A stretch of DNA of 64,000 bases from Paraburkholderia sp. Tr-20389 (GTDB lineage Bacteria > Pseudomonadota > Gammaproteobacteria > Burkholderiales > Burkholderiaceae): positions 62,001 to 126,000 of the forward strand of contig NZ_JAAGPD010000020.1 in the NCBI RefSeq assembly GCF_017104565.1, written 5' to 3'. The first letter of the stretch is position 1. Each line of letters opens with the position of its first letter. Below the pieces are notes generated by a model. It made no database searches. It was not told where the DNA came from and worked only from the letters and a program-made list of their open reading frames with translations. The position numbers and the translations under genes were made by a program. This document shows, piece by piece, positions 37,565-59,312 of the stretch.

Positions 37565-38890
37565 ATGGGAATGCAGAAGGTCACTTCAACGCCTGCGGAT
37601 GATTCCGCGTGTGGCTGGTATCACCTTAGCCCGCCCCGCGAACCACGGCCGTCGCACTCCGGGAAAAAGAATGCTCGCTGGACGGTCGTTGGTGCCGGCT
37701 ACACCGGCCTGGCCGCCGCTCGACAGCTTGCTCTGAATTTCCCTGACCAAGAGATCGTTCTCGTGGAAGCGCAGGAAGTAGGCTTCGGCACTGCCGGGCG
37801 AAATGCGGGCTTCGCAATCGATCTCCCGCACGACATCGGCGCCGACGACTATATCGGGGACATCGAGACGGCGAAGGCGACACTCCAGTTGAATCTTCTG
37901 GGGCAGTCCGTTCTCCGTAATATCGTTGAAAAGTACGGTATCGACTGTGCGATGCGTTCGTCCGGAAAGTATCAAGCGGCAGTCGAAAGCCGGGGGCTCG
38001 CCGCGCTCGATGCCTATCGTCGCGGTCTCGACAAGCTCGGTCAGCAATACGAGATGATCGAAGGACGTGACTTGCCTGGGCATATCGGCACGCACTTCTA
38101 CAAACGCGCCCTTTACACGCCGGGAACGATCCTCGTGCAGCCATCCGCGCTTGTCAAAGGTCTTGCTGACAGTTTGCCGGCCAACGTGACGCTGTACGAA
38201 CGCACTCCGATTACGGAAGTGGAGTACGGTGAAAAGGTCGTGTTAGGACATGCCCAAGGGCAGATAGTCACCGATAAACTCATCCTGGCTAACAACGCAT
38301 TCGGCATGAGGTTCGGATTCCTCAGACGTTCCATGCTGCCGGTTTTCCTGTACGCAAGCCTCAGCAGACCATTGTCGGCGCAGGAGCAAGAGGCTTTAGG
38401 CGGCAAAGACTTCTGGGGCGTCATTCCTGCGGACCCGTTCGGAAGCACGGTGCGGCGCACGCATGACAATCGGATTCTGATCCGCAACAGCTTTAGCTTC
38501 AATCCAGATGGACGCCCGAAGCAACAGTACCTGGCGCGGATGGCGAAGCGGCATGAATTGTCCTTCCAGCGAAGATTTCCGATGCTGCCCGATGTCGGCT
38601 TCGACTACACCTGGAGCGGATCCCTGGCGCTTTCGCAAAACCACGAGGGCTTCTTTGGTCAGCTCGGCCCCAACGTGTACGGGGCGCTGTGCTGCAACGG
38701 TCTGGGGATCACGCGAGGGACGGTGACGGGAACGCTGCTCGCCGACTGGATTGCCGGAAAGCGCAATGCGCTCATCGAGCATCTGTTGAGATCGCCGGGA
38801 CCAAAGGCCGCTCCGCCGGAACCATTCCTTTCGCTGGGCGTGAACGCAACGTTATGGTGGGGGCAGCAAATGGCCGGTCTTGAGAGTTGA
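37565..38890 (+). CDS. FAD-dependent oxidoreductase, DadA/PuuB-like
   Basis: This is a glycine oxidase/D-amino acid dehydrogenase-fold flavoprotein of 441 residues. The dinucleotide-binding motif WTVVGAGYTGLAAARQLA starts near residue 39, with the acidic end of strand 2 in IVLVEAQEVGFGTAGRNAGFA, a signature of PuuB and related amine or amino acid oxidases. A late motif YGALCCNGLGITRGTVTG closes the FAD domain. It should oxidise an amine, amino acid or imino acid to an imine and ammonia or aldehyde. The adjacent DapA-family gene, 72 bp downstream, and the co-regulated aldehyde dehydrogenase fit a single catabolic route. Confidence 0.88.
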   Translation: MGMQKVTSTPADDSACGWYHLSPPREPRPSHSGKKNARWTVVGAGYTGLAAARQLALNFPDQEIVLVEAQEVGFGTAGRNAGFAIDLPHDIGADDYIGDIETAKATLQLNLLGQSVLRNIVEKYGIDCAMRSSGKYQAAVESRGLAALDAYRRGLDKLGQQYEMIEGRDLPGHIGTHFYKRALYTPGTILVQPSALVKGLADSLPANVTLYERTPITEVEYGEKVVLGHAQGQIVTDKLILANNAFGMRFGFLRRSMLPVFLYASLSRPLSAQEQEALGGKDFWGVIPADPFGSTVRRTHDNRILIRNSFSFNPDGRPKQQYLARMAKRHELSFQRRFPMLPDVGFDYTWSGSLALSQNHEGFFGQLGPNVYGALCCNGLGITRGTVTGTLLADWIAGKRNALIEHLLRSPGPKAAPPEPFLSLGVNATLWWGQQMAGLES

Positions 38891-38962: not shown

Positions 38963-39868
38963 ATGAAATTCGAAGGCATTTACACCCCCGCGATCACGCC
39001 CTTGTCGAGCGACGGAAGCATCGACAAGGCAGCGTTTGCTGAGGTCATCGAGCATCTGATTGGTTCGAAGGTGCATGGCATCATCATCGGCGGATCCACC
39101 GGCGAATACTATTCGCATACGCCTCAGGAGCGATTCGAGTTGGCATCGCATGCCAGGGAAATCATCGGTTCACGGCTGCCGCTGATTATCGGAACGGGCG
39201 CAGTCCGCACGGAAGACTCGGTCGAGTACGCAAAGGCGGCGAAGTCGATCGGGGCAGATGCGATTCTGGTCAGTTCGCCCCCTTACGCGCTGCCGACCGA
39301 GGAAGAGAATGCAATCCACGCGCTTGCGGTCGATCAGGCAGCCGGTCTGCCCGTCATGCTCTACAACTATCCCGGACGCACGAATGCGCTGATGGGGCGA
39401 AAGTTCTTTGAAACGGTCGTTTCGAAATCGAAGAACTTTATTGCGATCAAGGAGAGCTCGGGCAGTACGGGCCAGTTACACATGCTCGCGCGATACTTTC
39501 CTGGCATCAATCTCTCTTGCGGCTGGGACGATCAGGCACTCGAGTTTTTTGCGTGGGGCGCACGCAGCTGGGTATGCGCAGGCTCCAACTTCCTGCCAGA
39601 CGAACATATCGCGCTGTACGAAGCGTGCGTCGTCAAGAAGGATTTCGACAAGGGCCGCCGGATCATGTCTGCGATGATGCCGTTGATGGACTTCCTCGAG
39701 GACGCCGGCAAGTTCGTTCAATCGATCAAGCAAGGATGCGAATTTGCGGGGCTGCGTACTGGCGGCTTGCGAACACCGTTGCAGCCTCTCGACGACGAGC
39801 AAAAGCAGACGCTGCAGCGGATCGTAACCGCGCTCAAAGAAGAGGTAAAAGCGGTCACTGCTGCATAG
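38963..39868 (+). CDS. DapA-family Schiff-base lyase/deaminase
   Basis: This is a class I aldolase-fold enzyme of the dihydrodipicolinate synthase/N-acetylneuraminate lyase family, 301 residues. The Schiff-base lysine is K163 in FIAIKESSG and the catalytic tyrosine region is LYNYPG (Y134/Y136); GGSTGEYYSHTPQER matches the GTTGE pyruvate-binding loop. The family includes pyrroline-4-hydroxy-2-carboxylate deaminase, KDG aldolase and 5-keto-4-deoxyglucarate dehydratase. Next to a DadA-like oxidase and an aldehyde dehydrogenase, an imino-acid (hydroxyproline-like) pathway is plausible, but no epimerase is present. True DapA for lysine synthesis is less likely here. Confidence 0.88.
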   Translation: MKFEGIYTPAITPLSSDGSIDKAAFAEVIEHLIGSKVHGIIIGGSTGEYYSHTPQERFELASHAREIIGSRLPLIIGTGAVRTEDSVEYAKAAKSIGADAILVSSPPYALPTEEENAIHALAVDQAAGLPVMLYNYPGRTNALMGRKFFETVVSKSKNFIAIKESSGSTGQLHMLARYFPGINLSCGWDDQALEFFAWGARSWVCAGSNFLPDEHIALYEACVVKKDFDKGRRIMSAMMPLMDFLEDAGKFVQSIKQGCEFAGLRTGGLRTPLQPLDDEQKQTLQRIVTALKEEVKAVTAA

Positions 39869-44994: not shown

Positions 44995-45768
44995 TCAACT
45001 TTTATCAGGTGCGAGCTGATTGAAAACATGATCGCACGCAGCTTTCCATGCGGCGTACCCCCCATTTTCAATCAGTAGATCTCGTCCTCCCGCTGTGTAA
45101 GTCCCGGGAGTCGCGATGGACAGCCCCAATTCGTCGATTGGCGTCGATGACTTGTACCGCGAGTACGCAACGCAATCCTCGACACTGCTGAACACCAACG
45201 CTCTTGCGGCTTCCGGTGGCATGCCGTTTTGAGTGAGCCACTGCTGCAATTCGTGAATCAGGAAATAGAACCATCCGTTCATACACGCAGCAATCATGGC
45301 GAGTTCGAATTCGCGCTCGGTCTCCAGATTCACGACGTTTCCGAGCGGCGCAAACAACTGCGCTCCCTTGGAATTGGCGGGATGAACCGCGACCGTCGAT
45401 CGATTGATCTCAGCTGCGTAGGACATCATCACACGGCTATAGTCACGGTTACCAAACAACCGCGACAGATCTTCGATCGAAACGCCCGCCACGACGGAGA
45501 TCAATGGCTGAAGAGGCTTCAAGGTCACTTGCCGGGCGAGTTCCGCGAGGTGTGCCGGGCGTACGCCGACGAGCACGACGTCGGCATCATTCACGACGTC
45601 CTGGTTGCTCGCCATCACCATGCAGTCGAGATCTTTTGCTAGCGCTGCTGCCTTCCCCTCGTTTCTCGGCGAAAGAAGAAGCTGTATGGCGGCGCTGCCG
45701 TCGCGACTCAAGCCGCGAATCATCTTGTCGGTGAGGTCGCCTACGCCGAGCACGCCAAGCTTGATCAT
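44995..45768 (-). CDS. Pyrroline-5-carboxylate reductase-like protein
   Basis: This 257-residue protein has an N-terminal NAD(P)-binding Rossmann motif IKLGVLGVGDLTDKMIRGL and the ProC-like sequence DADVVLVGVRPAHLAELARQVTLKP...LISVVAGVSIEDLSRLFG. The C-terminal helical region resembles the ProC dimerisation domain (SSTPIDELGLSIATPGTYTAGG corresponds to the VTSPGGTTxxG region). It is therefore an F420/ProC-type reductase, but the glycine loop differs from authentic ProC, so the substrate may be another imine such as a demethylation product. It is in tandem with the TetR gene on the minus strand. Confidence 0.82.
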   Translation of the reverse strand: MIKLGVLGVGDLTDKMIRGLSRDGSAAIQLLLSPRNEGKAAALAKDLDCMVMASNQDVVNDADVVLVGVRPAHLAELARQVTLKPLQPLISVVAGVSIEDLSRLFGNRDYSRVMMSYAAEINRSTVAVHPANSKGAQLFAPLGNVVNLETEREFELAMIAACMNGWFYFLIHELQQWLTQNGMPPEAARALVFSSVEDCVAYSRYKSSTPIDELGLSIATPGTYTAGGRDLLIENGGYAAWKAACDHVFNQLAPDKS

Positions 45769-45810: not shown

Positions 45811-46434
45811 TCAAGCCGTGCCCAGATTCCTGCGGGCGAAAAACCGCTGTAATTCCCGCTCTTCAGGTCGCACGCCTGTAAACACAGTGACGTATTCGGC
45901 GATCCGCGTCATGCGTACCGCCAACTCCTCATTCGGATGTGTCGACACGTATCCCAGTTGCGTGAAATACAGCGCCCTTGCCCGCACGTCCGCCGCAAGC
46001 GGTTGGTAGTCGAAACGCAGGAACATGTTGGTGAGGGCGGCGACACGGCGCTCGTCGTCGTCAGCGGCCTCGCGGGCGATCTCCGGCGACTGCTGCGCCC
46101 AACTCCGGATCGCGGCTTCGAATCGCGAGTCGAAGATCGTGTCGTCGAACCAGCAGTCGAACACGTTCAATACCGCTTCGCAGATGGTCTCCGCATAGGC
46201 GTCTGCGCGCTTGATCCAGTTGCCCGTGTTGGTCGACTTCCAACGGCTCAGTAGCGCGGCCAACAACTCTTCGCGGTCGGTAAAGAACCAGTAGAAACTG
46301 GTTCTCGACAGATTGAGCTTCTTCGCAAGAGGCAGGATGCGGACCGATTCGACCCCGCCTTCGAGAAGGCTTTCGTAGGCGGCATCGAGCCACATTTCGA
46401 CAGAGCCGCGTACGGCATCGACGGCTTCTTCCAT
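45811..46434 (-). CDS. TetR-family regulator
   Basis: This is a TetR/AcrR-type repressor of 207 residues. The N-terminal helix-turn-helix lies at about 15-60 (AAYESLLEGGVESVRILPLAKKLNLSRTSFYWFFTDREELLAALL). The rest is the helical ligand-binding domain. It is transcribed divergently from the demethylase gene at 46639, and the intergenic region holds a promoter for that gene with a small palindrome on its -35 box, the expected layout for a repressor. The ProC-like gene follows it at 42 bp. Confidence 0.88.
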   Translation of the reverse strand: MEEAVDAVRGSVEMWLDAAYESLLEGGVESVRILPLAKKLNLSRTSFYWFFTDREELLAALLSRWKSTNTGNWIKRADAYAETICEAVLNVFDCWFDDTIFDSRFEAAIRSWAQQSPEIAREAADDDERRVAALTNMFLRFDYQPLAADVRARALYFTQLGYVSTHPNEELAVRMTRIAEYVTVFTGVRPEERELQRFFARRNLGTA

Positions 46435-46555
46435 GAGAACAGTTCCTTTGTAACGAGTCCGGTAAGCGCGTGTCGGCTCTGGCGATTGTGCCGGAACGAA
46501 GCCAAAGAGGCATTCACACAGGGTTTACACGGGTAATGTACATCAATGTCCTTGT

Positions 46556-46586
46556 ACTTGACACAAGTGTACAGCGGTCTTAATCT
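46556..46586 (+). promoter_or_regulatory. Sigma-70 promoter and operator of the demethylase gene
   Basis: TTGACA (46558-46563) and TAATCT (46581-46586) are separated by 17 bp. The palindrome ACTTG-ACA-CAAGT (46556-46568) covers the -35 box, where a bound repressor would block RNA polymerase. The divergent TetR is the likely binder (inference). Confidence 0.6.
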
Positions 46587-46638
46587 GCAATCAAACACCA
46601 TAGTTGAGACGTCCCCACCTGCGACAAGAGGCACTTCC

Positions 46639-48675
46639 ATGTCGACTGATCCGCTGCTGCAACCGTACACGCTCAAGCACGTCACTTTCCGCAATCGAAT
46701 CATGACGACGTCGCACGAGCCGGCGTACGCAGAGGACGGTATGCCGAAAGAGGCGTACCGTGCGTACCACGTCGAGCGGGCGAAGGCCGGCATCGCGCTG
46801 ACGATGACGGCCGGTTCGGCGGCCGTTTCGAAAGACAGTCCGCCCGTCTTCAACAACATTCTTGCCTACAAGGATGAGGTCGTTCCGTGGATGAAGGATC
46901 TCGTCGACGAATGCCACGAGCACGGCGCGAAGGTGATGATCCAGTTGACGCATCTCGGCAGGCGCACGCGATGGGACAAGGGAGACTGGCTCCCCGCCGT
47001 GTCGCCATCGCATGCGCGCGAGCCCGCGCATCGTGCGTTCCCGAAGAAGATCGAGGAATGGGATATCGACCGTATCATTCGCGACTTTGCCGATGCCGCC
47101 GAGCGCATGAAAGCGGCGGGCCTCGATGGCCTCGAAATTGAATCCTATGGTCATCTGATGGACCAGTTCTGGTCGCCGCTGACCAACACGCTCGACTCGC
47201 CTTACGGCGGCTCGCTCGACAACCGTCTGCGCTTCACTTTCGAAGTACTGAGGGCGATCCGCGAGCGGGTTGGAGACAACTTCCTGCTGGGACTCCGCTA
47301 TACCGCGGACGAAATCATCGCGGGCGGTATCACCAAAACAGAAGGTATCGAGATTTCCCAGCGGTTAGCCAAAAGCGGTCTGGTCGATTATCTGAACGTG
47401 ATTCGCGGACACCTCGAAACCGATGCAGGATTGACCGACATCATTCCGATCATGGGAATGAAGAGCGCTCCGCATCTGGACTTTGCAGGGGAAATCCGCG
47501 AAGCGACGGGCTTCCCGACCTTTCACGCTGCGCGTATCCAGGACGTGGCCACCGCGAGATATGCGATCGAGTCGCGCAAGATCGATATGGTGGGCATGAC
47601 GCGCGCGCACATGACGGATCCGCACATCGTCAGGAAGATCATCGAGCGCAGGGAGGACGATATCCGGCCGTGCGTGGGCGCGAACTACTGTCTCGATCGA
47701 ATCTATCAGGGAGGCGCGGCTTACTGCATTCACAACGCCGCGACGGGGCGCGAACTGACGATGCCCCACACGATTGCGCGAGCCGCGACGAAGCGCAAGA
47801 TCGTTATCGTGGGCGCGGGTCCCGCGGGGTTGGAAGCCGCACGGGTTGCGGGCGAACGAGGCCATGATGTGCTCGTGCTCGAAGCGATGAACGATCCGGG
47901 CGGCCAGATTCGCCTGACTGCACAGAGCGAGCGCCGCAAGGAGATGCTGGGCATCATCGACTGGCGTATGTCCCAGTGCGAGCGGCTCGGCGTGCGATTC
48001 GCGTTCAACACATGGGCCGATGCCGACACCGTGAAAGCGGAGAGCCCGGACGTCGTGATCGTTGCGACGGGCGGCATGCCGCACACGGAAGTGCTGACGG
48101 AAGGCAACGAACATGTCGTCTCTTCGTGGGACGTCATTTCCGGCGACGTAAAGCCCGGCAAGAACGTGTTGATCTTCGACGATGCCGGCGACCACGCCGC
48201 CCTGCAAGCTGCCGAAACGATCGCTCAGGCAGGCGGCAGCGTGGAAGTGATGACGCCCGATCGCGCATTCTCGCCCGAGGTCATGAGCATGAATCTCGTG
48301 CCCTACATGCGTACGCTGCAAAAGCTGAAGACGAAGTTCACGGTGACTTACCGGCTCGAAGCGGTGCGCAGAGAAGGGCAGGAATTTGTCGCGGTCATCG
48401 GCAGCGATTACGGCGGCGTGCGAAATGAGCAACGCTACGATCAGATTGTCGTGAATCACGGAACCATTCCGATGGACGAACTGTATTTCGAACTGAAGCC
48501 ATTGTCGAAAAATCTGGGTGCCGTGAATTACGAGAACCTGATAAACGGCAAGGTGCAGGCAGAAGAGAAGAATCCGGAAGGACTTTTCCAGCTCTTCAGA
48601 ATCGGCGACGCAGTATCGGCGCGAAACACGCATGCGGCTATCTATGACGCGCTCCGTCTCGTCAAGGATCTATGA
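46639..48675 (+). CDS. Old yellow enzyme-type N-demethylase (DgcA/StcD-like)
   Basis: This is a 678-residue flavin/iron-sulfur dehydrogenase of the trimethylamine dehydrogenase/2,4-dienoyl-CoA reductase family. An FMN barrel (about 1-370; RNRIMTTSHEPAYAEDGMP, MIQLTHLGRRTRWDKGDW, MDQFWSPLTN) is followed by CVGANYCLDRIYQGGAAYC and then an FAD/NAD domain starting KRKIVIVGAGPAGLEAARV. HLGRRTRWD and CVGANYC are as in DgcA (dimethylglycine) and stachydrine/N-methylproline demethylases, so the altered cysteine spacing is family-typical. It likely removes an N-methyl group with C1 transfer. No DgcB partner is seen. Confidence 0.85.
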   Translation: MSTDPLLQPYTLKHVTFRNRIMTTSHEPAYAEDGMPKEAYRAYHVERAKAGIALTMTAGSAAVSKDSPPVFNNILAYKDEVVPWMKDLVDECHEHGAKVMIQLTHLGRRTRWDKGDWLPAVSPSHAREPAHRAFPKKIEEWDIDRIIRDFADAAERMKAAGLDGLEIESYGHLMDQFWSPLTNTLDSPYGGSLDNRLRFTFEVLRAIRERVGDNFLLGLRYTADEIIAGGITKTEGIEISQRLAKSGLVDYLNVIRGHLETDAGLTDIIPIMGMKSAPHLDFAGEIREATGFPTFHAARIQDVATARYAIESRKIDMVGMTRAHMTDPHIVRKIIERREDDIRPCVGANYCLDRIYQGGAAYCIHNAATGRELTMPHTIARAATKRKIVIVGAGPAGLEAARVAGERGHDVLVLEAMNDPGGQIRLTAQSERRKEMLGIIDWRMSQCERLGVRFAFNTWADADTVKAESPDVVIVATGGMPHTEVLTEGNEHVVSSWDVISGDVKPGKNVLIFDDAGDHAALQAAETIAQAGGSVEVMTPDRAFSPEVMSMNLVPYMRTLQKLKTKFTVTYRLEAVRREGQEFVAVIGSDYGGVRNEQRYDQIVVNHGTIPMDELYFELKPLSKNLGAVNYENLINGKVQAEEKNPEGLFQLFRIGDAVSARNTHAAIYDALRLVKDL

Positions 48676-48983: not shown

Positions 48984-50294
48984 ATGAGCACCATCAATGG
49001 GATCACCGATCTTCATCGCCATAGAGCAGAATCAAAGCTCGCCTACAGAACCGATGACGCGGTTCTCGGCTGCCGGGCTGGAGTAATCGACGGTTCACTG
49101 GTACGCGCATTTGAAGATCTCGATCGCAAATCGATGAGAGCATTCCGACTGGCGCGCCTGCGTGAGCAACTGCGTTCTCACGACTACGCCGGCATGCTGC
49201 TATGCGATCCGCTGAACATTCGCTACGCAACCGACACCAACAATCTCGGGCTGTGGGTCATGCATTCGCCGAGTCGCTATGTATTCGTCGCGACGGATGG
49301 GCCCGTGATCCTGTTCGACTTCACCAGCAGCCGGCACAACAGCGAAGGCATCGAGACAATCGACGAAATCCGTCCCGCCACGCCGTGGATCTATTTCCTT
49401 GCGGGTCCGCGCGTCGAAGAGAAGGCGGAGTTGTGGGCAAAAGAGATCGCGGATATCGTCCGCACCTATGGTTCCGGCAATCGCCGGCTGGCTGTCGACC
49501 GTTGTGATCCCTGGGGTGCCGAACGGCTCAAGCGTAACGGAATCGAATTGTTCGATGCGCAGCCTTTGACGGAGCAGGCTCGCGTCATCAAGGGGCCGCA
49601 AGAGATCGAACAGCATCGGATATCGATGGGCGTGTGCGACCTGGGCATCGCAAGAATGCGCGAGGCTCTCACGCCGGGCATCACGGAAAATCAGCTGTGG
49701 AGCGTCTTTCACGCGACCAACATCGCACACGGCGGCGAGTACGCGGAGTCCCGGTTGCTCACTTCCGGCGAGCGAACCAACCCATGGTTTCAGGACACAT
49801 CGAATCGCATCATCGAGGCCGGCGATATGGTCGCGTTCGACACGGATATGGTCGGGCCAGGCGGATCGCTCTCGGATATCTCACGTAGCTTCGTCTGTCC
49901 GGGTAAGGCGGCAACTGGACATCAGCGAGATCTTTTCGGTTTTGCGGCGGATCAGATCGCGCACAACGTCAGTTTGCTGAAGGCAGGGCTGTCGTTCCGC
50001 GAGTTTGCCGAGCATTGCTGGCCCGTACCCGATCAATACGTGCACAACCGCTACATGATGATGCTGCACGGTGTTGGACTCGTCGACGAATATCCGAGCG
50101 TTGCGTATGCGGTGGATTTCGATGCCTGGGGATACGACGGCGTGTTCCAGGAGAACATGGTCGTCTCGGTTGAAAGCTATATCGGCGAACACGGCGGGAA
50201 AGAGGGCGTCAAGCTGGAAGAGCAGGTGTTGATCACCGCGACGGGTGCCGTCGTGCTTTCGAGCTGTCCGCTTCTGAACGATCTGAATGCTTGA
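48984..50294 (+). CDS. DddP-like M24-family metalloenzyme
   Basis: This 436-residue protein has the creatinase/M24 pita-bread fold and resembles DddP, the DMSP lyase of marine bacteria, more than aminopeptidase P. Shared features are LLCDPLNIRYATDTNNLGLW, RTNPWFQ, AFDTDMVGPGGSLSDISRSF and KLEEQVLIT. Candidate metal ligands are D286, D288, D298, H362, E397 and E412; their spacing equals the DddP ligands recalled as D295, D297, D307, H371, E406 and E421, a constant offset of nine. The extra Asp (D288) distinguishes DddP from peptidases. Whether it cleaves DMSP or another onium/peptide substrate is not known. It is preceded by an operator-bearing promoter. Confidence 0.75.
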   Translation: MSTINGITDLHRHRAESKLAYRTDDAVLGCRAGVIDGSLVRAFEDLDRKSMRAFRLARLREQLRSHDYAGMLLCDPLNIRYATDTNNLGLWVMHSPSRYVFVATDGPVILFDFTSSRHNSEGIETIDEIRPATPWIYFLAGPRVEEKAELWAKEIADIVRTYGSGNRRLAVDRCDPWGAERLKRNGIELFDAQPLTEQARVIKGPQEIEQHRISMGVCDLGIARMREALTPGITENQLWSVFHATNIAHGGEYAESRLLTSGERTNPWFQDTSNRIIEAGDMVAFDTDMVGPGGSLSDISRSFVCPGKAATGHQRDLFGFAADQIAHNVSLLKAGLSFREFAEHCWPVPDQYVHNRYMMMLHGVGLVDEYPSVAYAVDFDAWGYDGVFQENMVVSVESYIGEHGGKEGVKLEEQVLITATGAVVLSSCPLLNDLNA

Positions 50295-50322: not shown

Positions 50323-51327
50323 ATGCACGCAAGCAAACTTCCGCTGTTGATCGACTCTGATGCCGTTCTGGGTGACATCCCGCCGGAGCAGATGGTCGAC
50401 GCGCTCGCGCGGGGACATCTTCAGCAATACGTCTCCGCGGCGCGAGTCCATTCCCGGATAGGCCGGACATCGAGGCCGGACGCGGAAGTGCTCGTATGGG
50501 TCGCATCGCGGGAAGACGGCGGATTGGGTATGAAGTTCGTGACGCTCTCGCGTGACAACAAGGATCGATCGGAAAGTACCGCGGACACGATTCATTCGGC
50601 GATCCTGCTGTGCGATGCCGACGATGCAAGTATCAAGTGCTTTATCGTGGGCAACAGCTTCACGCGATACAAAACAGCGGCGGATTCGGCACTCGCGGCG
50701 CGATTCCTCGCGCCGCGAGAACCTCGACGCTTACTGATGATCGGTGCGGGCTCGCAAGCGCCCATTCATCTGAAAGTCATGTGCGCGGAGTTTCCGTCGC
50801 TTGAGCGAATTGAAGTGTGGAACCGCAATGCGGATCGCGCGGCAAAGGTCGTCGAGCGATCTGAGTTTTCTGGGGATACGCGGGTATCCAGAGCACTGGA
50901 GCAGAGCGTACGCGAAGCGGACATCGTCATCTGCACGACAAGCTCGACGATGCCCATATTCAAGGGGGAATGGCTGAAACCCGGCACACATGTAGATCTG
51001 GTAGGTGGCTATACGCCACAGATGCGCGAGGCCGACGACGCGGCTGTGCTCAAGGCGAGCGTCTATGTCGATCACCGAGCGCTCGTGATGGAAAACTGCG
51101 GCGACATCGTGCAACCGCTGGAAACCGGTGTGATCGACGCATCGCACGTTCGCGGAGATCTGTTCGATCTTTGCGCAAAGACAGTGGAGGGACGCCGAAG
51201 CGATCACGAGATCACGCTGTTCAAGAACGGCGGCGGTGGTCATCTCGATCTGATGTTCGCCGAATGGCTGTTTGCGAACCAGCGGCCGGACGAACAACGA
51301 TTGGTCGAAGCACCAACGCGAGGATGA
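50323..51327 (+). CDS. Ornithine cyclodeaminase/mu-crystallin family protein
   Basis: This is a 334-residue NAD(P)-dependent enzyme of the OCD family, which includes ornithine cyclodeaminase, alanine dehydrogenase (archaeal) and delta-1-pyrroline-2-carboxylate reductase. GMKFVTLSRDNKDR and SAILLCDADDASIKCFIVGNSFTRYKTAADSALAARFLA precede the Rossmann motif LLMIGAGSQAPIHLKVM (about 134-150). VDLVGGYTPQMREADDAAV corresponds to the conserved GADTPGKQEL region but is divergent, so the substrate may not be ornithine. It starts 28 bp after the DddP-like gene and overlaps the MarR gene by four bases. Confidence 0.88.
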   Translation: MHASKLPLLIDSDAVLGDIPPEQMVDALARGHLQQYVSAARVHSRIGRTSRPDAEVLVWVASREDGGLGMKFVTLSRDNKDRSESTADTIHSAILLCDADDASIKCFIVGNSFTRYKTAADSALAARFLAPREPRRLLMIGAGSQAPIHLKVMCAEFPSLERIEVWNRNADRAAKVVERSEFSGDTRVSRALEQSVREADIVICTTSSTMPIFKGEWLKPGTHVDLVGGYTPQMREADDAAVLKASVYVDHRALVMENCGDIVQPLETGVIDASHVRGDLFDLCAKTVEGRRSDHEITLFKNGGGGHLDLMFAEWLFANQRPDEQRLVEAPTRG

Positions 51328-51863
51328 AACGCGATATGGAATTGAGCATGAGAAGCGCGAGCCAGGCCGACAAACGCGCGGATGCCGATGGTGACGCCGT
51401 GTCGCTCGCCGACGATGTATTCGACAAGGTCGTCATAAGGGGCCCGCTGAGCGACATGTGGCGCCTGACGTTGTGGGCGAACTGCTACTGCGAACCCATT
51501 TTCGCAGCGATGGCGCAGGAGTTCGACGTTGGGCGAGATGAGTTCAATGTACTGAGTTGCCTGGCATCTTATGGATCGATGGTTGCGAAAAACATTTGCG
51601 ATGTGACGGGCCGCCCGAAGAACAGTATCAGCCGCGCCGTGAACAGTCTGATTACACGCAAGATGATCAGGCGGAAGACCAATGCTCACGATCGCCGCGA
51701 GAGTCTGCTGATGCTCAACGATAGCGGACGGCGCCTCTACGAGAAGGTGTTGCCGGTTGCCGTCGATCGCCAGACGCTGATGCTCAGGGTGCTGAACACT
51801 CAGGAGAGAGCCATGCTGGACAGCATCCTCAACAAGATGATGAGTACGCGGCACGAGTGGTGA
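51324..51863 (+). CDS. MarR-family regulator
   Basis: This is a winged-helix regulator of 179 residues. The DNA-binding part at about 75-135 reads FDVGRDEFNVLSCLASYGSMVAKNICDVTGRPKNSISRAVNSLITRKMIRRKTNAHDRRES, the MarR pattern with a wing of Arg. The ATG overlaps the OCD stop (ATGA), so it is co-translated with the enzyme genes. It probably controls the DddP-like/OCD/ABC operon, possibly through the CCACGTGG palindrome at 48890-48909; the effector is unknown. Confidence 0.88.
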   Translation: MKRDMELSMRSASQADKRADADGDAVSLADDVFDKVVIRGPLSDMWRLTLWANCYCEPIFAAMAQEFDVGRDEFNVLSCLASYGSMVAKNICDVTGRPKNSISRAVNSLITRKMIRRKTNAHDRRESLLMLNDSGRRLYEKVLPVAVDRQTLMLRVLNTQERAMLDSILNKMMSTRHEW

Positions 51864-51941: not shown

Positions 51942-52754
51942 ATGAACAGCATTACATCGCCCTGGCTCGAATCAGGACCGGCACCGGAATGTGCGTCGAG
52001 ATCCGATGCGCCGATTCTGTGCGTGGATGGCGTCGGTAAGATGTTCGGGGCGCATAGAGTGCTCGAAGACGTCAGTTTCCAGATGCGAACGGGCGAAGTG
52101 ATTGCCATCATCGGCCCGAGCGGATCCGGCAAAAGCACGCTGCTGCGCTGTATCAATCAACTGGAACCGCCCACGGAGGGGCGCGTCACGATCGACGATA
52201 TGACGATCGAAGCGGGTCACGCACCGTCCCGTCGCGAACTCGTGACGTTACGTCGACGTATCGGAATGGTTTTCCAGTCGTTCAATCTCTTTCCGCATCT
52301 GTCCGTGCTGCGGAACGTCAGCCTCGCGCAGGAACGCACGATGGGCCGCAGTCGCAAGGAGGCCGACGAGCGGTCGCTCGAATTGCTGGAGAGGGTCGGG
52401 CTCGCCAACAAGGCGTCGCAGTATCCCGCGCGGTGCTCAGGCGGTCAGCAGCAACGCATTGCCATCGCGCGTGCGTTGGCGCTCGAGCCGGAAATCATGC
52501 TGTTCGACGAGCCTACGTCTGCACTCGACCCGGAACTCGGGCTCGAAGTACTGACCGTGATGAAAGAACTCGCGACGTCTGGCATGACGATGATCGTCGT
52601 GACTCACGAAATGCACTTTGCAGAAAGCGTGTCCGACCGGGTCATCATCATGGCCGACGGCCGCATTCTCGAACAGGGCGACAGTGAAGAGGTGATGCGA
52701 CGTCCCAAGACCGAGCGAGCCGCCAAATTCCTCAGTGCAGTGAGGGACAGGTAA
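51942..52754 (+). CDS. Polar amino acid ABC transporter ATP-binding protein
   Basis: This is the 270-residue ATPase of a GlnQ/HisP-type importer. Walker A GPSGSGKST lies at 58-66, the Q-loop in MVFQSFNLFPHLSVLRNV, signature CSGGQQQRIAIARA and Walker B MLFDEPTSALDPE follow. GGAGAGAG precedes the start. The stop touches the first permease gene (TAA then ATG), showing tight coupling. With the two permeases and the binding protein it forms a complete importer whose ligand is probably the substrate of the enzymes upstream. Confidence 0.93.
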   Translation: MNSITSPWLESGPAPECASRSDAPILCVDGVGKMFGAHRVLEDVSFQMRTGEVIAIIGPSGSGKSTLLRCINQLEPPTEGRVTIDDMTIEAGHAPSRRELVTLRRRIGMVFQSFNLFPHLSVLRNVSLAQERTMGRSRKEADERSLELLERVGLANKASQYPARCSGGQQQRIAIARALALEPEIMLFDEPTSALDPELGLEVLTVMKELATSGMTMIVVTHEMHFAESVSDRVIIMADGRILEQGDSEEVMRRPKTERAAKFLSAVRDR

Positions 52755-53396
52755 ATGATGATCGACCTCTCCGCAATTCTGAAAGGCGTCCCCTGGACCG
52801 TTGCGTTGACCATCGCAACTTTTACGCTCGGGTCGATTCTCGGCCTGCCGCTGTGCGCAATGCGCCTTTCGAGAAATTTCATCCTTCGTGGCGTCGCAAC
52901 GGGGATCGTGGTGGTGTGCCGCTCGATCCCGCCCATCGTGTGGCTGTTCTTCGTGTTCTTCGGCATCGGCAACGACCTGCTTGCGATGAGCCCGTTCGTC
53001 GCTGCGGCTGTCGGACTTGGCATCGTGACGGCGGCCAATATGTCGGAGATCTATCGCGGCGCGCTCACGGCAATTCATCCCGGGCAATACGAGGCAGCGA
53101 AGGTGCTCAACCTGACTCGTGTCCAGCAATTCCGCGACGTCGTGTTTCCGCAGTTGGTCCGGATCGCGTTACCGACAGCTGCGACGTATCTGATCGGGCT
53201 TCTTAAGGACTCGGCGGTCGCGTCGACGATCGGTGTCACCGAACTGGCATTCCAGGCTTATCACGTTTCCCAGGCGACCTTCCGTGGGCTGAGCGTCTAT
53301 GGTTCCGCGGCCTTGCTTTACATCGCGTTGAGTATTCCCGTCGCGTGGGCTTCGCGGTGGGCCGACGTTCACCTTCGTTCGCGGGTGTCACGATGA
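52755..53396 (+). CDS. Polar amino acid ABC transporter permease 1
   Basis: This is a 213-residue inner-membrane permease of the HisMQ family with about five membrane segments. The ATPase-contacting loop is AIHPGQYEAAKVLNLTRVQQFRDVVFPQ, matching the EAA motif, and IVVVCRSIPPIVWLFFVFFGIGN resembles the conserved FRGTPLLVQLF region. It begins directly after the ATPase stop and overlaps the second permease by four bases. Confidence 0.92.
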   Translation: MMIDLSAILKGVPWTVALTIATFTLGSILGLPLCAMRLSRNFILRGVATGIVVVCRSIPPIVWLFFVFFGIGNDLLAMSPFVAAAVGLGIVTAANMSEIYRGALTAIHPGQYEAAKVLNLTRVQQFRDVVFPQLVRIALPTAATYLIGLLKDSAVASTIGVTELAFQAYHVSQATFRGLSVYGSAALLYIALSIPVAWASRWADVHLRSRVSR

Positions 53397-54055
53397 ACAA
53401 TCTGCTCGAACAATGGAAAGGCTGGTTACCCGATCTTCTGGACGGTTATCGGATTTCACTGGAGGTGACGGCAGTCACGCTGGCGGTCGGCATTCCGTTG
53501 GGGCTGGCACTCGCATTGATGGTGTCAGCACGATCGCGTCCGATCCGTACCTTCGCGCTGATCTTCGTTGAAATAGGGCGCGGTGCGCCTGCGCTGATCC
53601 TGCTGCAGTTCTGCTATTTCGGGCTGCCCGCGGCGGGCTTGACACTGTCTTCGTTTGCGTCCGCCTGCGTCGCGCTGGCATGCTGCACGGGTGCCTATAC
53701 AAGCGAGATGATTCGCGCGGGCTTCGAGGCGGTGCCGTATGGCCAGAAAGAGGCGGCGCTCGTTATCGGCCTGAACGGCGTGGACGCGTTGCGCTTCGTC
53801 ATCATTCCGCAAGGCATGCGCGTTGCCCTGCCATCGCTGCTTGGCTTCTCCATCATGATGCTTCAGGCGACCTCGCTGTGCTTCACGATTGCGCTGCCGG
53901 AACTGGTGAGCCGCGCTTCGAATATCGGCTCGTCGACATTCGAGTACATGCCCGTATTGATACTGGCCGGTTTGCTGTTTGCCGTCATTTGCGTTCCATC
54001 GACGTTCGCTGTGTCGGCGCTGGAACGCAGGTTGGGACGCCACGCGGTTCGATAG
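53393..54055 (+). CDS. Polar amino acid ABC transporter permease 2
   Basis: This is the second HisMQ-type permease, 220 residues from the ATG at 53393, which overlaps permease 1 in ATGA. The EAA loop is EAVPYGQKEAALVIGLNGVDALRFVIIPQGMRVALP and the N-terminal VTLAVGIPLGLALALM segment is typical. An upstream in-frame ATG would add 16 residues inside the previous gene and is unlikely. Both permeases form the heterodimeric channel. Confidence 0.92.
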   Translation: MNNLLEQWKGWLPDLLDGYRISLEVTAVTLAVGIPLGLALALMVSARSRPIRTFALIFVEIGRGAPALILLQFCYFGLPAAGLTLSSFASACVALACCTGAYTSEMIRAGFEAVPYGQKEAALVIGLNGVDALRFVIIPQGMRVALPSLLGFSIMMLQATSLCFTIALPELVSRASNIGSSTFEYMPVLILAGLLFAVICVPSTFAVSALERRLGRHAVR

Positions 54056-54114: not shown

Positions 54115-54954
54115 ATGAATGCTTTGTTGAAACGTCTTGCCGTGCTTGGCTGTTCCGTTTCCCTGCTCGGCTTTGGCGCCGCTGCACATGCTGCGGGAAG
54201 TTGCACGCCCGCGCACAAGTTCTCGACGATCAAACCGGGCACACTTTCCGTCGCAACATGGGACTTCCCGCCGTATTCCATTCCTGTGAGTGGGAGCGAA
54301 GTCAACGGGGTCGACGGTGCGATCCTCAGGCTGATTGCGGCCAAAGAGTGTCTGACGCTCTCTTTCGCGAACGTCGATGCAGCGGCGGTGATTCAATCGG
54401 TGGTGTCCGGGAAAGCCGACATCGCGATGGGTGACTGGTATCGCACCGCCGACCGGGCGAAGGTACTCGGATTGAGTGCGCCGATGTACCTAGATCAGAT
54501 GGGTGTCATTTCGGGTCAGGGAAGCGACACGATCAACGGTATGCAGGGAAAGCGGGTCGGTGCCGTCGCGGGATACCTGTGGACGGGCGATTTGCAGAAG
54601 GTCTTCGGAACCAGTCTGACCATCTATCCGAATCCGGTTGCAATGGCACAAGATCTGTCAGCGGGGCGCATCGACGTCGGCACGGATAGCTATGCCGTCG
54701 CCGTCTACGATCAAAAGAAGGGCGGTTACAAGGCAATGAAAATCGATGTCGTCAAACCTGACAAGCGAGTGCCTGCGACGATTCAGCCTGGGCAGACGGC
54801 CTTCCCGTACACCAAGTCGAATCAGGCGCTTGGAGATGCGCTTTCGGCCGATATCGAGGCACTGCATCAGTCCGGCGATATTGCGCGCATCCTTAAAGAA
54901 CACGGGCTGGATCCGAACGCCGAAAAGGTCGGCACACCGCGACTGGTGCAGTGA
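54115..54954 (+). CDS. Periplasmic amino acid-binding protein (SBP family 3)
   Basis: This is the 279-residue periplasmic receptor of the importer. The signal peptide MNALLKRLAVLGCSVSLLGFGAAAHA is followed by TLSVATWDFPPYSIPVSGSEVNGVDGAILRLIAAKE, the SBP family 3 opening in which PPY and the following region contact the ligand amino group. SGKADIAMGDWYRTADRAKVLGLSAPMYLDQMGVI is also typical, although it carries a Trp where many members have Ser/Thr. Its stop overlaps the EamA start (GTGA), so importer and exporter are co-transcribed. Confidence 0.92.
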   Translation: MNALLKRLAVLGCSVSLLGFGAAAHAAGSCTPAHKFSTIKPGTLSVATWDFPPYSIPVSGSEVNGVDGAILRLIAAKECLTLSFANVDAAAVIQSVVSGKADIAMGDWYRTADRAKVLGLSAPMYLDQMGVISGQGSDTINGMQGKRVGAVAGYLWTGDLQKVFGTSLTIYPNPVAMAQDLSAGRIDVGTDSYAVAVYDQKKGGYKAMKIDVVKPDKRVPATIQPGQTAFPYTKSNQALGDALSADIEALHQSGDIARILKEHGLDPNAEKVGTPRLVQ

Positions 54955-55943
54955 GAGTCCCGCTAAAGACGATGACCGATAGCGGGCGGTTGCTTGGCAA
55001 GCCACTGTCTTCGCGAGGGCCGATCGGTTCGATGATCGGCGCGACCGGTCTTTGGGCGATCTCGTTGATTGCGCCTCTGATACTGGCCGCATTTTCTCCG
55101 ACCGAGATCACGGCGGCCCGGTACTTGTGGTACGGCATCGTCTCCGCTGCGATTCTTCTCGTGCGATATCGCCATCGTCGACTCGGTGTCCGACGTTGGA
55201 TACGTGCTGCGTTCTATGGCTTGTCAGGAAACGTTGCCGTCTCTATTCTCGTCAGCTTTGCGGTCCAGAATACGGGCGCAGAGGTCGTCATACCGATCAT
55301 CGGGCTATTGCCGATCAGCATCTCCGTAGCAGGCAGCAGACATCTGCCTGTTGCAACATGGCGCCGGTTGTTGATTCCGTTCGCGTTGGTCACGGTGGGG
55401 CTGATCGTCGTGCTGACGGTGCAGTCTGGCGCGCTTGGCGGGAATGCGAAGCTAACGTGGGCGGGTACGGCGGCAGCGCTATTAACGGTGGCGCTATGGA
55501 CGTGGTACGCGCTATCGAATGCGCGCTTTCTGCAGAACAATCCATCCATCACGAGCACACATTGGTCGTGTGCAGTCGGCGTTGCGACCTTGTTGTTCTG
55601 TCTGGTGATGGCTGCCGTACAGCTCTACGGTGACAATGGTGTCGTGCTCGTTAAGAACATCCGGCAGGAATGGCCGATCTTCGCGCTGGTCACGATCAGC
55701 CTTGGCGCAGGAACCTCATGGCTCGCAACGGCGCTTTTTAATCGTGCGTCACACGAGTTGCCAATGGGACTGGTGGGTCAACTGGTCGTTCTTGAAACGC
55801 TCTTTGGAATTCTTTACATCTGCCTGTACAAACACACGATACCGCCGTTGACGCAGACAGTGGGCATGTTGCTCGCGATCGCCGGGATCTGGCTTTCCGC
55901 CAGAGTGCTATTGCGTGATGTCGAGCAGGCGAACTGCCATTAG
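54951..55943 (+). CDS. EamA/DMT-superfamily transporter
   Basis: This is an inner-membrane protein of 330 residues from the GTG at 54951, which overlaps the binding-protein stop; an ATG at 54972 is an alternative start. It has about ten hydrophobic segments and two EamA-type repeats (IGATGLWAISLIAPLILAAFSPTEITAARYLWYG opens the first; VTISLGAGTSWLATALFNRASHELPMGLVGQLVVLETLFGILY lies in the second). Members export amino acids, drugs or metabolites. As the last gene of this operon it may expel a toxic or excess breakdown product. Confidence 0.85.
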   Translation: MRVPLKTMTDSGRLLGKPLSSRGPIGSMIGATGLWAISLIAPLILAAFSPTEITAARYLWYGIVSAAILLVRYRHRRLGVRRWIRAAFYGLSGNVAVSILVSFAVQNTGAEVVIPIIGLLPISISVAGSRHLPVATWRRLLIPFALVTVGLIVVLTVQSGALGGNAKLTWAGTAAALLTVALWTWYALSNARFLQNNPSITSTHWSCAVGVATLLFCLVMAAVQLYGDNGVVLVKNIRQEWPIFALVTISLGAGTSWLATALFNRASHELPMGLVGQLVVLETLFGILYICLYKHTIPPLTQTVGMLLAIAGIWLSARVLLRDVEQANCH

Positions 55944-56900: not shown

Positions 56901-59312
56901 TCAAGGTTTTTGCAGTGTCAAAAAGGCATCGATTGTGTGCTGGGTAGCATAGAACTTTGTCTTGATCTTCGGGTGCGGCGGATTACCCGTCATGACGACA
57001 TGCGGTGGAGTGCCGGCCGTTACCGCTACCGGTTGCCCTTGCGCATCAAGAACAGGTTCCTTCGCACTATTGCGCCGCCACACGAACGTAAGTGGAGTCG
57101 TACTGCCTGAGAATACATCGTCGAGCAATGCATTTCGCAAATAGAGAACGGCCTGCAGCCTGACATCATAGCCATTCAGATTCTCAATGCTTACGTTGCC
57201 GTTGACATCCCTGCTGACTGCGGCGGCGTCATCCTGAGTGACACCCGCGTCCATGTGATGGAGCATGCCAGACCGATTCGCCACATAGAAGCAGGAACTG
57301 TCGACACAGTTTTCCTTGTTGCTATCGCCATCGTTATTGCGAGCAATCAGCGCATTCGGGTCCCAGCCAAGCTGGGAAAACGTAGCGGGAACAGTACCCG
57401 TCGGAAATTTTCGAAACTCACCGTAAGGCTTGTAGTTCTCCAAGTGCGTCAACTGAATCAGGCCGCGGCCATAGTAAGGGTTGTACGAGGCGTGCTCTCC
57501 GCCGAGTTCCTTGACGTAGTGAAGACTGTCCGTTTCTGGAACGACGTGCGCAAAAAAATGGGCTAAACGCTGTCGGCTGGCCGATACGCCGTACTTCCTG
57601 GTACCCTTGTTGAACGCCAAAACCCACTCGCCGGCACGGCTTCTCGCTGTGCTCCATCGCGTCGTCGATTGCGCGAACTGGGTTCCTTGCAGATAAAGCC
57701 ATTTTGGCGGAAAGCATCTCGCCATTTCATCCGCGCTCAACCAGCCGCATCGCCTGAAATAGCGGATAAACTGCAATGGATGAAAGAACCAGAGCTTGTC
57801 TTCACTCAAGCCCGTCTTGTCCCAGAACTGGAATTTCTTCAGCAATTCCAGGAAGTCGTGATATCCGTCGGGATTCGTGCTCTTCTGCTTCCCATAAAAG
57901 CCATCCGGCTCGTTGAGCTTCGCATATCGGACGTCGTTGTGCGCGCTGTTCCATTCGGTCGGCGCTTCACAAATGAATCCGCGCAACTTCTCGCGAATGG
58001 CAGCATGTCCCCTGACGTAGCTGCTCAATGCATCTTCATCGACAGACTCGTTCGCATTGGATGCCTGCGGCGCCACGTCGTCGACGATCTTCTTTAGTTG
58101 ATCGACATCGCACAGTCCGTCGTCGCTGAAGGGCGTGTTGCCTTCGCTGATCTTCTGCCAGCCGGTGAAGAATGGAAAATCGGCATCCGATAGCTTGATG
58201 ATGCTATCCGCGTTGATGTCGATATATCCCTCCTGCCCTTGCGCGAAAGTCACGCGCATCCACGTCGTACGCGGGCCAGGCGCGCTGATGGGATGCGGAT
58301 TGCCCGCCACGCCAGGCGCAACGCCAGCGGGTGTATCGGTTGTGCCGCTGGCCAGCACCGGCTGGTCTGCGAGAATGCGCCCGAACCGCAGCAACTCGTA
58401 GCCGTCGTTCGGGCCATCCTTATAAAGTTGTGTCGCGCGCGCAATCATGCTGTATTCGTAGCCAGACTCGCTGACCGGTTGCGGCGTCAGCAGCGTACGC
58501 ACCCCGTCGCTTCCCACCTGCCATGTCGACGTATATTTCGTGCCCTTGTGAAAATACGATTCGACATGAAGCGCGCCACCCTGGTTAGTACCACCTTGAA
58601 GCGGCTGGAATAGCACACCATGCAGCTTGTTGTGACTGTCCGTGCCTGGCGGCTTCGCGAGGAAGGTCTGATCCGCTGGAATGATGTAGTAGGTATGCCC
58701 CCAGCAATCCTTGCTGGTCGGTGTTGCGGGCCCCTTGTTGTCCAACTGGGTGCTGCCGAAATATGCGTTGAAGTCGGCAGGCAGCATGAACACTTCGAAG
58801 TGGACATGCATTTGCCCGTGACAGCGCCCGGGCAGCCCCAATACGTCCTTCCGGTAGATCTTCTTTCCGCCGCCCACCTGGCCATCCTCAGGTGTGGGTG
58901 TGCGCAGGTACTCGGGCAATGTATTCAGCTGCACGCCTAGCCCCGTGTATCCATCGAGTTCGAGCAGATGCATGTAGAGCGAATAGAACGTGATCGAACG
59001 CCCGTCGCCCGTTTCGGTCGAGTGCTTGATAAGAACGAAGCCGGCATTGCTGTCAGGTGTGCCGCTCCCGCCGTCGATTGCTTTCTGACACACGCGATAC
59101 GCAACGATCTCGCCGTCCGCGATCGCCCTGACGCGTTCGTTCTGCGTCGCGGGCATCAAATGGACGCCCGTGTGCCACCGCCGGTCAAAGGCAACAGGAT
59201 AGATGCCGTGCGCTAACTGGAACTGGTCAACCGCATCCATCATCGGATCCAGCGCATTGGCATCGTTTGATGTCATGCCTGTTGCGGGCAAAAAAGGGGG
59301 GCTGATAATCAT
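56901..59312 (-). CDS. T6SS effector, M23-like plus GH19-like peptidoglycan hydrolase
   Basis: This large protein of 803 residues lies five bases after vgrG. The N-terminal domain (about 30-200) resembles an M23 metallopeptidase: HTGVHLM, the mid-motif FYSLYMHLLEL and the terminal HxH in HGQMHVHFEVF. The C-terminal domain (about 590-720) resembles GH19 chitinase/lysozyme: RLAHFFAHVVPETDSLHYVKEL and YYGRGLIQLTHLENYKPYG. A linker domain with an SH3-like SPGEEGYIDI pattern lies between. No signal peptide is present, as for effectors delivered by VgrG. Two activities would cut both peptide and glycan bonds of the target wall. An alternative start lies at MTSNDANAL about 12 residues in. Confidence 0.78.
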   Translation of the reverse strand: MIISPPFLPATGMTSNDANALDPMMDAVDQFQLAHGIYPVAFDRRWHTGVHLMPATQNERVRAIADGEIVAYRVCQKAIDGGSGTPDSNAGFVLIKHSTETGDGRSITFYSLYMHLLELDGYTGLGVQLNTLPEYLRTPTPEDGQVGGGKKIYRKDVLGLPGRCHGQMHVHFEVFMLPADFNAYFGSTQLDNKGPATPTSKDCWGHTYYIIPADQTFLAKPPGTDSHNKLHGVLFQPLQGGTNQGGALHVESYFHKGTKYTSTWQVGSDGVRTLLTPQPVSESGYEYSMIARATQLYKDGPNDGYELLRFGRILADQPVLASGTTDTPAGVAPGVAGNPHPISAPGPRTTWMRVTFAQGQEGYIDINADSIIKLSDADFPFFTGWQKISEGNTPFSDDGLCDVDQLKKIVDDVAPQASNANESVDEDALSSYVRGHAAIREKLRGFICEAPTEWNSAHNDVRYAKLNEPDGFYGKQKSTNPDGYHDFLELLKKFQFWDKTGLSEDKLWFFHPLQFIRYFRRCGWLSADEMARCFPPKWLYLQGTQFAQSTTRWSTARSRAGEWVLAFNKGTRKYGVSASRQRLAHFFAHVVPETDSLHYVKELGGEHASYNPYYGRGLIQLTHLENYKPYGEFRKFPTGTVPATFSQLGWDPNALIARNNDGDSNKENCVDSSCFYVANRSGMLHHMDAGVTQDDAAAVSRDVNGNVSIENLNGYDVRLQAVLYLRNALLDDVFSGSTTPLTFVWRRNSAKEPVLDAQGQPVAVTAGTPPHVVMTGNPPHPKIKTKFYATQHTIDAFLTLQKP

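Follow-up and report, generated by a model that had tools for sequence, protein, structure and literature searches.

What is a close cousin of a marine DMS-releasing enzyme doing in the soil bacterium Paraburkholderia sp. Tr-20389, in an operon that looks made for demethylating plant betaines? Of the bacterial genes for DMSP lyases, dddP was counted most often in an ocean survey, at about 65% of the ddd genes in Tara data according to a passage in PMC10686828. DddP is reported to be slow on DMSP; part of PMC4108388 gives a Km of 13.8 mM for RnDddP, for which its authors suggest missing metal as a possible cause. The DddP-like protein analyzed here, P0001, belongs to a separate clade, keeps the same catalytic residues and sits in a nitrogen-betaine setting, which makes it a testable candidate for the role of the fold before, or besides, DMSP. 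Its natural substrate is probably something other than marine DMSP. Where homology is used to count DMSP lyases in soil, or PF16867 cupins in rhizobia, the tally may be of something else. Throughout, the window is the whole 64,000-nucleotide stretch of contig NZ_JAAGPD010000020.1 that was analyzed.

Relationship of P0001 to DddP

P0001 (436 aa) is encoded by a real open reading frame at 48984..50294 on the forward strand, with an ATG at 48984 and a stop at 50294. An alignment with 19 relatives, among them a member of the choline-context group described below, gives identities of 66-85%. A phmmer search of the PDB returned RdDddP (E 4e-80) and RlDddP (6e-79 to 1e-77), with prolidases only from 4e-10. 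Against the NCBIfam DddP model NF043017, P0001 scores 347.4 bits, short of the 600 needed for the equivalog cut-off; the next-best model reaches 43 bits, and the DoeA model, at 28.6 bits, is far under its cut-off of 575. An AlphaFold model made from 20 window-type sequences is of moderate quality (mean pLDDT 72, pTM 0.76). Foldseek ranks four DddP chains first to fourth for this model (E 5e-36 to 8e-35, TM 0.80), followed by prolidases (1e-20) and, lower down, DoeA (3e-16); peptidases are nearer than DddP neither by sequence nor by fold. The segments around W91 and D368 (residues 76-96 and 365-370) have a pLDDT below 50, so that the model is not informative on pocket geometry.

The six metal ligands of RdDddP (Asp295, Asp297, Asp307, His371, Glu406 and Glu421; Hehemann 2014, part of PMC4108388) are all found in P0001, as D286, D288, D298, H362, E397 and E412. 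The first-pass annotation had proposed these six residues, at a constant offset of nine, and the alignments bear it out. It had also pointed to the Asp that separates DddP from peptidases; this is Asp297, the ligand that a passage in PMC4108388 describes as absent from methionine aminopeptidases, and it is retained as D288. In the alignment, D-x-D and the DddP ligands occur in 0 of 20 other M24-fold proteins from same-genus genomes, which were chosen with the DoeA model and all fall under its cut-off. Tyr366 and Asp377, proposed as catalytic and invariant in DddP (part of PMC4108388), correspond to Y357 and D368, again at an offset of nine. Given the E value of 4e-80 to DddP, a chance origin of the residue pattern is negligible. 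Trp95, reportedly a DddP pocket residue (Wang 2015), corresponds to W91, at an offset of four.

In the P0001 motif HGVGLVDEYP, an Asp (D368) stands after HGxGL, as in DddP. In prolidases and other M24 peptidases a second catalytic His would be expected after the HGxGL motif. A regular expression for this peptidase motif matched none of the control M24 proteins, so that the His/Asp comparison is without a positive control.

Among 137 distinct aligned rows, 105 have Asp377, 101 of these together with Trp95 (the exceptions are L070, L111, L113 and L117), and another 26 carry Gly377, accompanied in 24 cases by Tyr or Phe at position 95; the others are L061, broken at position 377, and five far M24 rows that are unaligned there. 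A second alignment puts the conservation of W95 and D377 at 94% or more across the marine, window and Rieske groups. The ligands, Y366, D377 and W95 are retained across the examined window-clade rows, except for the broken L061. At 39 alignment positions, marine DddP and the window clade have different residues, each fixed to 90% or more.

A quick maximum-likelihood tree of 114 of the 137 rows (near-duplicates and short rows left out; SH-aLRT support, without bootstrap and without the assayed fungal DddPs) places P0001 in a 25-row clade of Burkholderiaceae and Pseudomonas with a long stem (SH-aLRT 100), choline-context rows included. RlDddP and RdDddP fall in a separate 33-row clade (SH-aLRT 100), and P0001 lies outside this clade. 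Another DddP-like clade, with Rieske genes, holds members from Rhizobium, Paraburkholderia, Caballeronia and a Pseudomonas plasmid. Three far M24 rows attach via very long branches, and this tree does not settle how the clades branch from one another.

P0001 thus shares with DddP (RlDddP, 4rzy/4s01; RdDddP, 4b28) the fold, the six ligands, Tyr366, Asp377 and Trp95, and differs from it in identity (35-36% in structural alignment), in a score below the family cut-off, in its separate clade and in its N-demethylation operon. We do not file it as DddP because two defining tests failed, the model cut-off and the clade. The first-pass term 'DddP-like' therefore stands for the active site, not for DddP itself (347 vs 600 bits, outside the clade of the solved enzymes). 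Sequence, models, tree and fold all place P0001 away from prolidases and DoeA. It is probably an M24-fold enzyme of the DddP superfamily, neither a peptidase nor DddP itself, and it may still function as DddP does. The clade and the operon setting are new, and the fold and active site are already known.

Some other rows of the alignment deserve mention. The Gly377 group (L110, L126-L139, L141, L160 and L169-L173) mostly has Tyr or Phe in place of Trp95, half of its loci lie beside ProU-type importers, and its function has probably changed. The genome G422 (L148, 8109) encodes a pair of DddPs above the cut-off, and MttB-type and DMGDH-type genes adjoin one of the pair. In Burkholderia latens (L061, 7896-9255) the DddP-like gene is split into two open reading frames, probably through disruption or a sequencing error.

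Genes of the window cluster and paralogues

The gene for P0001 stands in a run of genes that we assign as follows.

44995..45768, reverse strand: ProC/F420_oxidored-like (P5CR-like) reductase (Pfam)
45811..46434, reverse strand: TetR regulator, divergent from the OYE gene (59% identical to a TetR of R. ruizarguesonis)
46546..48675, forward strand: OYE-type flavoenzyme, StcD-like N-methylproline demethylase (family scans, stcD homology)
48984..50294, forward strand: DddP-like M24-fold metalloenzyme P0001 (sequence, residues, fold)
50323..51327, forward strand: OCD/mu-crystallin family protein, probable cyclic ketimine (pyrroline/piperideine-2-carboxylate) reductase (family scans, solved relatives)
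51342..51863, forward strand: MarR-family regulator (family scans)
51942..52754, forward strand: PAAT-type ABC importer, ATPase (family scan)
52755..53396, forward strand: PAAT-type ABC importer, permease 1 (family scan)
53345..54055, forward strand: PAAT-type ABC importer, permease 2 (family scan)
54115..54954, forward strand: PAAT-type solute-binding protein, SBP_bac_3 (family scans)
54951..55943, forward strand: EamA-family transporter (Pfam)

The OYE gene probably starts at 46639, and most homologues begin near residue 25-32; the true start of permease 2 is probably downstream of the GTG at 53345. The EamA transporter has a close homologue only in L029 (68%) and is for this reason placed outside the conserved core; the ProC-like gene is likewise conserved (70%) only there. 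Among solved relatives of the OCD protein, 7rbp (OCD/mu-crystallin family) comes first, followed by delta1-pyrroline-2-carboxylate reductase 6t3e (2e-34) and 4bv8 (thiomorpholine-carboxylate dehydrogenase), presumably the ketimine reductase mu-crystallin.

Family scans agree with the first-pass description of P0001 as lying between an N-demethylase-like flavoenzyme (the OYE, upstream) and an OCD homologue (downstream), with an amino acid-type ABC importer, here of the PAAT type, after the OCD and MarR genes. The same annotation had seen no acrylate-handling genes. That holds for AcuI/YhdH, the sole acrylate gene searched for, which has no match near P0001; elsewhere in the genome there is one over-cut-off match (contig C83) and seven weaker ones.

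The genome has three close DddP-like genes, namely the window's, one at C13:150627 (73% identical) and one at C19:755895 (47%), as well as three more matches at 25-28%. The C13 paralogue (L008, 8630-9898; C13:150627-151892) adjoins a choline/betaine-type importer and an aldehyde dehydrogenase, and the context of L050 and L061 resembles this choline/betaine setting. In the run of the C19 paralogue (L009, 8505-12998), the gene is preceded by a GbcB-like reductase (338 bits, cut-off 500) and followed on its 3' side by the glutathione-independent formaldehyde dehydrogenase FdhA (749 bits, cut-off 637) and then by a PF16867 DMSP_lyase cupin, the sole PF16867 match in the genome at E 1e-5.

Conservation of the cluster

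A scan of genome contigs gave 34 loci, of which 31 were counted after L050 and L061 (choline-context group) and the truncated L062 were set aside. All 31 have a PAAT solute-binding gene and 30 have an OYE gene; the exception, L034, is cut by a contig end. A divergent upstream TetR is present in all 30 loci with an OYE gene. In L036 the OYE and DddP-like genes are set apart by a stretch of about 4 kb that holds a regulator and formaldehyde genes. ETF genes occur in five of the loci, gfa in three, adhC in three (one of which supplied the marker) and fghA in two. An OCD gene is found in 12 of the 31 and a DpkA-like Ldh_2 gene in 11, both together in none and neither in eight. For the Ldh_2 protein, delta1-piperideine-2-carboxylate reductase 1wtj (8e-49) comes first among solved relatives, and L030, which has Ldh_2 and no OCD gene, also encodes an L-piperidine-6-carboxylate dehydrogenase (803 bits, cut-off 730). 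Two unrelated reductases for one reaction type in the same cluster suggest a cyclic ketimine intermediate, in a pattern that is partly lineage-bound.

By comparison, a core demethylase or importer marker was found in 0 of 20 other M24 loci, one of which has ETF genes and one of which (L191) is a region of merely 7 kb. This control matters because the markers were derived from window- and Rieske-type loci. In the Rieske-context clade, 19 of 22 loci have a core demethylation marker (all but L121, L122 and L168), as do 12 of 15 when the marker-supplying loci are removed; near-copies occur among these loci, L114 and L167 for example. They encode a stachydrine-demethylase-like Rieske oxygenase and/or its reductase, and often also ProU-type importers, a 4-hydroxyproline epimerase or formaldehyde genes. 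The Rieske protein of L114 matches 3n0q (2e-90), 3vca (3e-86), which we take to be Stc2, and 4qup, a 'demethylase' (3e-86); a carnitine-type partner was rejected, as carnitine monooxygenase reaches just 3e-26, far behind these three.

The 18 marine-type loci comprise 16 of the 27 over-cut-off places and two plasmid genes annotated dddP. Two of them have a core demethylation marker and three an importer marker, one via a putative BetA marker alone. Core and importer markers are found in 2 and 11 of the 22 Gly377 loci, in 0 and 3 of the 3 choline-context loci, in 2 and 0 of six further sub-cut-off loci, and in 1 and 0 of five unplaced loci. Marine DddP has the same residues as P0001 with a core marker in just 2 of 18 loci; thus, residues alone do not predict setting.

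Rhizobial stachydrine islands and PF16867 cupins

The window OYE is 76% identical over 677 aa to a pSymB homologue in S. meliloti 2011 and 76% identical to the annotated stcD product (N-methylproline demethylase) of R. etli IE4803; rhizobial StcD-type homologues are mostly at 69-76% among the 40 matches listed. The S. meliloti pSymB gene, unannotated in its record, is taken to be stcD by homology. A passage in PMC12239276 describes the pSymB stcD of S. meliloti as an N-methylproline demethylase that serves stachydrine catabolism. With this homology the cluster reads as 'stachydrine / N-methylproline-like' rather than 'DMSP-like'. A TMADH-like OYE was considered and rejected, as TMADH (4e-39) comes behind NCR (4e-67) and dienoyl-CoA reductase (1e-57) and the rhizobial StcD-type proteins are far closer.

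The window TetR and its counterpart next to the StcD-type OYE of R. ruizarguesonis are 59% identical over 205 aa. The gene order there is ProC-like, TetR / StcD-type OYE, PF16867 cupin, ETF, second PF16867 cupin, adhC, fghA, gfa, GntR, DapA-like, ALDH, FAD oxidase, ProU, 4HypE, GlxA / DddP-like, reductase and Rieske. The window and rhizobial ProC-like proteins are not clearly homologous, and this apparent synteny was not counted. The TetR/OYE/cupin arrangement is also found in R. etli IE4803, S. meliloti pSymB and Shinella. Pfam assigns PF16867, which we take to be the cupin DMSP-lyase family of the DddL/DddQ/DddW type, to the cupins of S. meliloti (3e-67), R. ruizarguesonis (both), Shinella, L216, L222 and L228; those of R. 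etli, L217 and L218 were placed in it via 83-86% identity to Pfam-matched ones. The slot 3' of TetR and OYE is hence occupied by an M24 DddP-like gene in the window clade and by a PF16867 cupin, which is not of the M24 fold, in several Rhizobiaceae. Two unrelated folds, both database-named for DMSP cleavage, are partners of what is, by homology, one kind of demethylase.

Most sampled OYE loci have neither partner. Among 29 phylum-sampled StcD-type OYE loci (1.5 kb flanks, own genome excluded), five have a cupin (L216, L217, L218, L222 and L228) and 24 have neither a cupin nor a DddP-like gene, the latter occurring within 1.5 kb of the OYE in 0 of 29. In plasmid regions with an OYE gene (L210-L212 and L246-L251), a PF16867 cupin follows it in four of nine. 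Left out of the count were two cupins next to an OYE gene: that of L212, which Pfam classes as an HTH-cupin regulator, and that of L242, which matches it. Rhizobial islands can carry both folds, with the DddP-like one adjoining Rieske genes. At least nine plasmid records have both DddP-like and OYE genes, 9-17 kb apart in eight of these nine; in CP073679, the OYE is just 43% identical and lies about 330 kb from the DddP-like gene.

Like the rhizobial stachydrine genes, the window has a TetR divergent from a StcD-type OYE, and several of its relatives have formaldehyde detoxification and ETF genes. Unlike them, it has the M24 DddP-like gene behind the OYE instead of a PF16867 cupin, an amino-acid type importer instead of ProU, and an operon without a Rieske gene. 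No Stc2-like Rieske oxygenase was found in the window operon, and the genome's two stachydrine-type matches are on contigs C24 and C31.

Proposed function of P0001

We put the probability at about 0.58 that P0001 is a C-alpha-H-abstracting enzyme acting on a stachydrine/N-methylproline-type compound. It would be a metalloenzyme, either a lyase or an epimerase, of betaine or N-methyl imino acid catabolism. Because the residues are kept, DddP-type chemistry is expected, with the carboxylate on a two-metal center and an Asp/Tyr base at C-alpha; the two-metal chemistry itself is predicted by homology to DddP. The betaine/N-methyl setting is argued for by the OYE and PAAT genes in 30 and 31 of the 31 window-clade loci vs 0 of 20 control loci, by the 76% identity of the OYE to the pSymB homologue and to annotated stcD, and by formaldehyde detoxification and ETF genes in several loci. 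It is further argued for by the presence of either an OCD or a DpkA-like Ldh_2 gene, never both, whose relatives include ketimine reductases, by the stachydrine-demethylase-like Rieske genes of another DddP-like clade, and by the PF16867 cupin behind TetR and StcD-type OYE in several Rhizobiaceae.

In the proposed mechanism, the TetR-linked operon would import and demethylate a compound from plants, either an N-methyl imino acid or a betaine, of the stachydrine/N-methylproline type, with the PAAT importer taking up the zwitterion. The two-metal center (D286, D288, D298, H362, E397 and E412) would bind the substrate carboxylate and D368 (or Y357) would abstract the C-alpha proton, after which a beta substituent would be expelled or, without one, the other face would be re-protonated (epimerization). 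The StcD-type flavoenzyme would take the N-methyl group off as formaldehyde, and the OCD protein, replaced elsewhere by the unrelated DpkA-type reductase, would reduce a cyclic ketimine to the imino acid. P0001 could eliminate a beta-substituted N-methyl imino acid to an iminium, which OCD or DpkA would convert to N-methylproline for StcD; it could epimerize a betaine without a leaving group; or it could cleave the beta C-S bond of thioproline formed from the released formaldehyde. Both the reaction type and the order of the operon steps are predictions.

Stachydrine breakdown proceeds through a Rieske enzyme and then StcD, and is not known to need a lyase. The P0001 step is therefore without an obvious place in that pathway. 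Also against the betaine/N-methyl reading are the window operon without a Rieske gene, the sampled StcD-type loci that mostly have neither a DddP-like nor a PF16867 neighbor, and the choline-context group (that of the 73% paralogue), which has an importer marker in 3 of 3 loci and a demethylase marker in 0 of 3. HpbD, a proline betaine racemase / 4-hydroxyproline betaine 2-epimerase of the enolase superfamily, would resemble the proposed P0001 in taking the C-alpha proton from a metal-bound betaine. Among the open-access titles searched, we found none on a role of DddP-like or M24 proteins in betaine breakdown.

The first-pass annotation had allowed for DMSP or a related onium substrate. The onium/N-methyl half fares better, because of the StcD-type demethylase, the layout in 30 of 31 relatives and PF16867 in the rhizobial slot; DMSP is possible, though less likely, as the natural substrate. 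The non-marine setting that it had proposed is an StcD-type N-demethylation operon. Its observation is thus confirmed and its interpretation partly supported, and the StcD type of the flavoenzyme, the conserved layout and the PF16867 cupin in the same slot in rhizobia go beyond it.

More broadly, the M24 DddP-like clade and the PF16867 cupins might stand in for each other beside betaine/N-methylproline demethylases in bacteria of soil and roots. Both would originally have carried out C-alpha-H-abstracting cleavage or epimerization of nitrogen compounds or of the formaldehyde adduct thioproline, and marine DMSP cleavage would have been recruited from this twice. We offer this scenario tentatively and consider it rather unlikely.

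The main rival reading, which we consider unlikely, makes P0001 a lyase of DMSP (or DMSOP) within an operon for onium compounds in general, yielding acrylate and DMS or DMSO. The premise would be importers common to betaines and DMSP, and the enzyme does retain the DddP ligands and both proposed catalytic residues; according to a passage in PMC10686828, DMSOP is also cleaved by DddP enzymes. The second DMSP-lyase fold, PF16867, occurs in like islands, including beside the third DddP-like gene of the genome. However, the constant partner of P0001 is an StcD-type demethylase, AcuI/YhdH is not close by, the 39 differently fixed positions set the two clades apart, and P0001 is below the DddP cut-off and outside the solved-DddP clade.

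Still less probable is that P0001 repairs thioproline, an adduct of cysteine with formaldehyde from N-demethylation, by C-alpha-H abstraction and beta C-S ring opening; the bond cleaved would be of the same type as in DMSP. Demethylases of unrelated kinds accompany the non-marine Asp377 clades in 30 of 31 and in 19 of 22 loci, partly with formaldehyde detoxification genes, and the Gly377 clade has a demethylase neighbor in just 2 of 22; yet marine DddP has Asp377 too, with a core marker in 2 of 18 loci, and the choline-context group has none in three. Thioproline is oxidized by ProC (a passage in PMC12899673) and a ProC-like gene lies in the window cluster, but the gene is conserved only in L029. 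The M24 peptidase PepP acts on thioproline peptides and counters thioproline (part of PMC13424408), but PepP works as a peptidase and P0001 is probably not one. In M. extorquens, thioproline is reportedly no driver of formaldehyde toxicity, according to a passage in PMC13131673.

That P0001 is an ordinary M24 hydrolase, whether an Xaa-Pro dipeptidase or a creatinase/DoeA-like amidohydrolase, is very improbable despite its Pfam matches to Peptidase_M24 and Creatinase_N and the public annotation of relatives as 'Xaa-Pro peptidase family protein', given prolidases at 4e-10 vs DddP at 4e-80, the DoeA model at 28.6 bits vs 347, and D368 where prolidases would have the second His.

Other genes of the window

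Upstream of the cluster, on the forward strand, the window encodes an aldehyde dehydrogenase (33699-35240), an AmaA-like FAD oxidase (DAO; 37565-38890) and a DapA-like lyase (38963-39868), all related to rhizobial-island genes. The aldehyde dehydrogenase is 83-88% identical to those in L123, L158 and L163, which are Rieske-reductase/DddP-like loci, and the DapA-like protein is about 71% identical to its rhizobial-island counterpart. Solved-structure searches with the aldehyde dehydrogenase and the DapA-like protein gave no specific assignment, and the DapA-like gene was not found in the fetched flank of the nearest relative. The window also encodes SelB, the selenocysteine-specific elongation factor (28694-30652, forward strand; 453 bits, cut-off 242). 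On the reverse strand, an 803-aa open reading frame (56901-59312) has, by eye, the look of a cell-wall-active protein with a chitinase-like segment.
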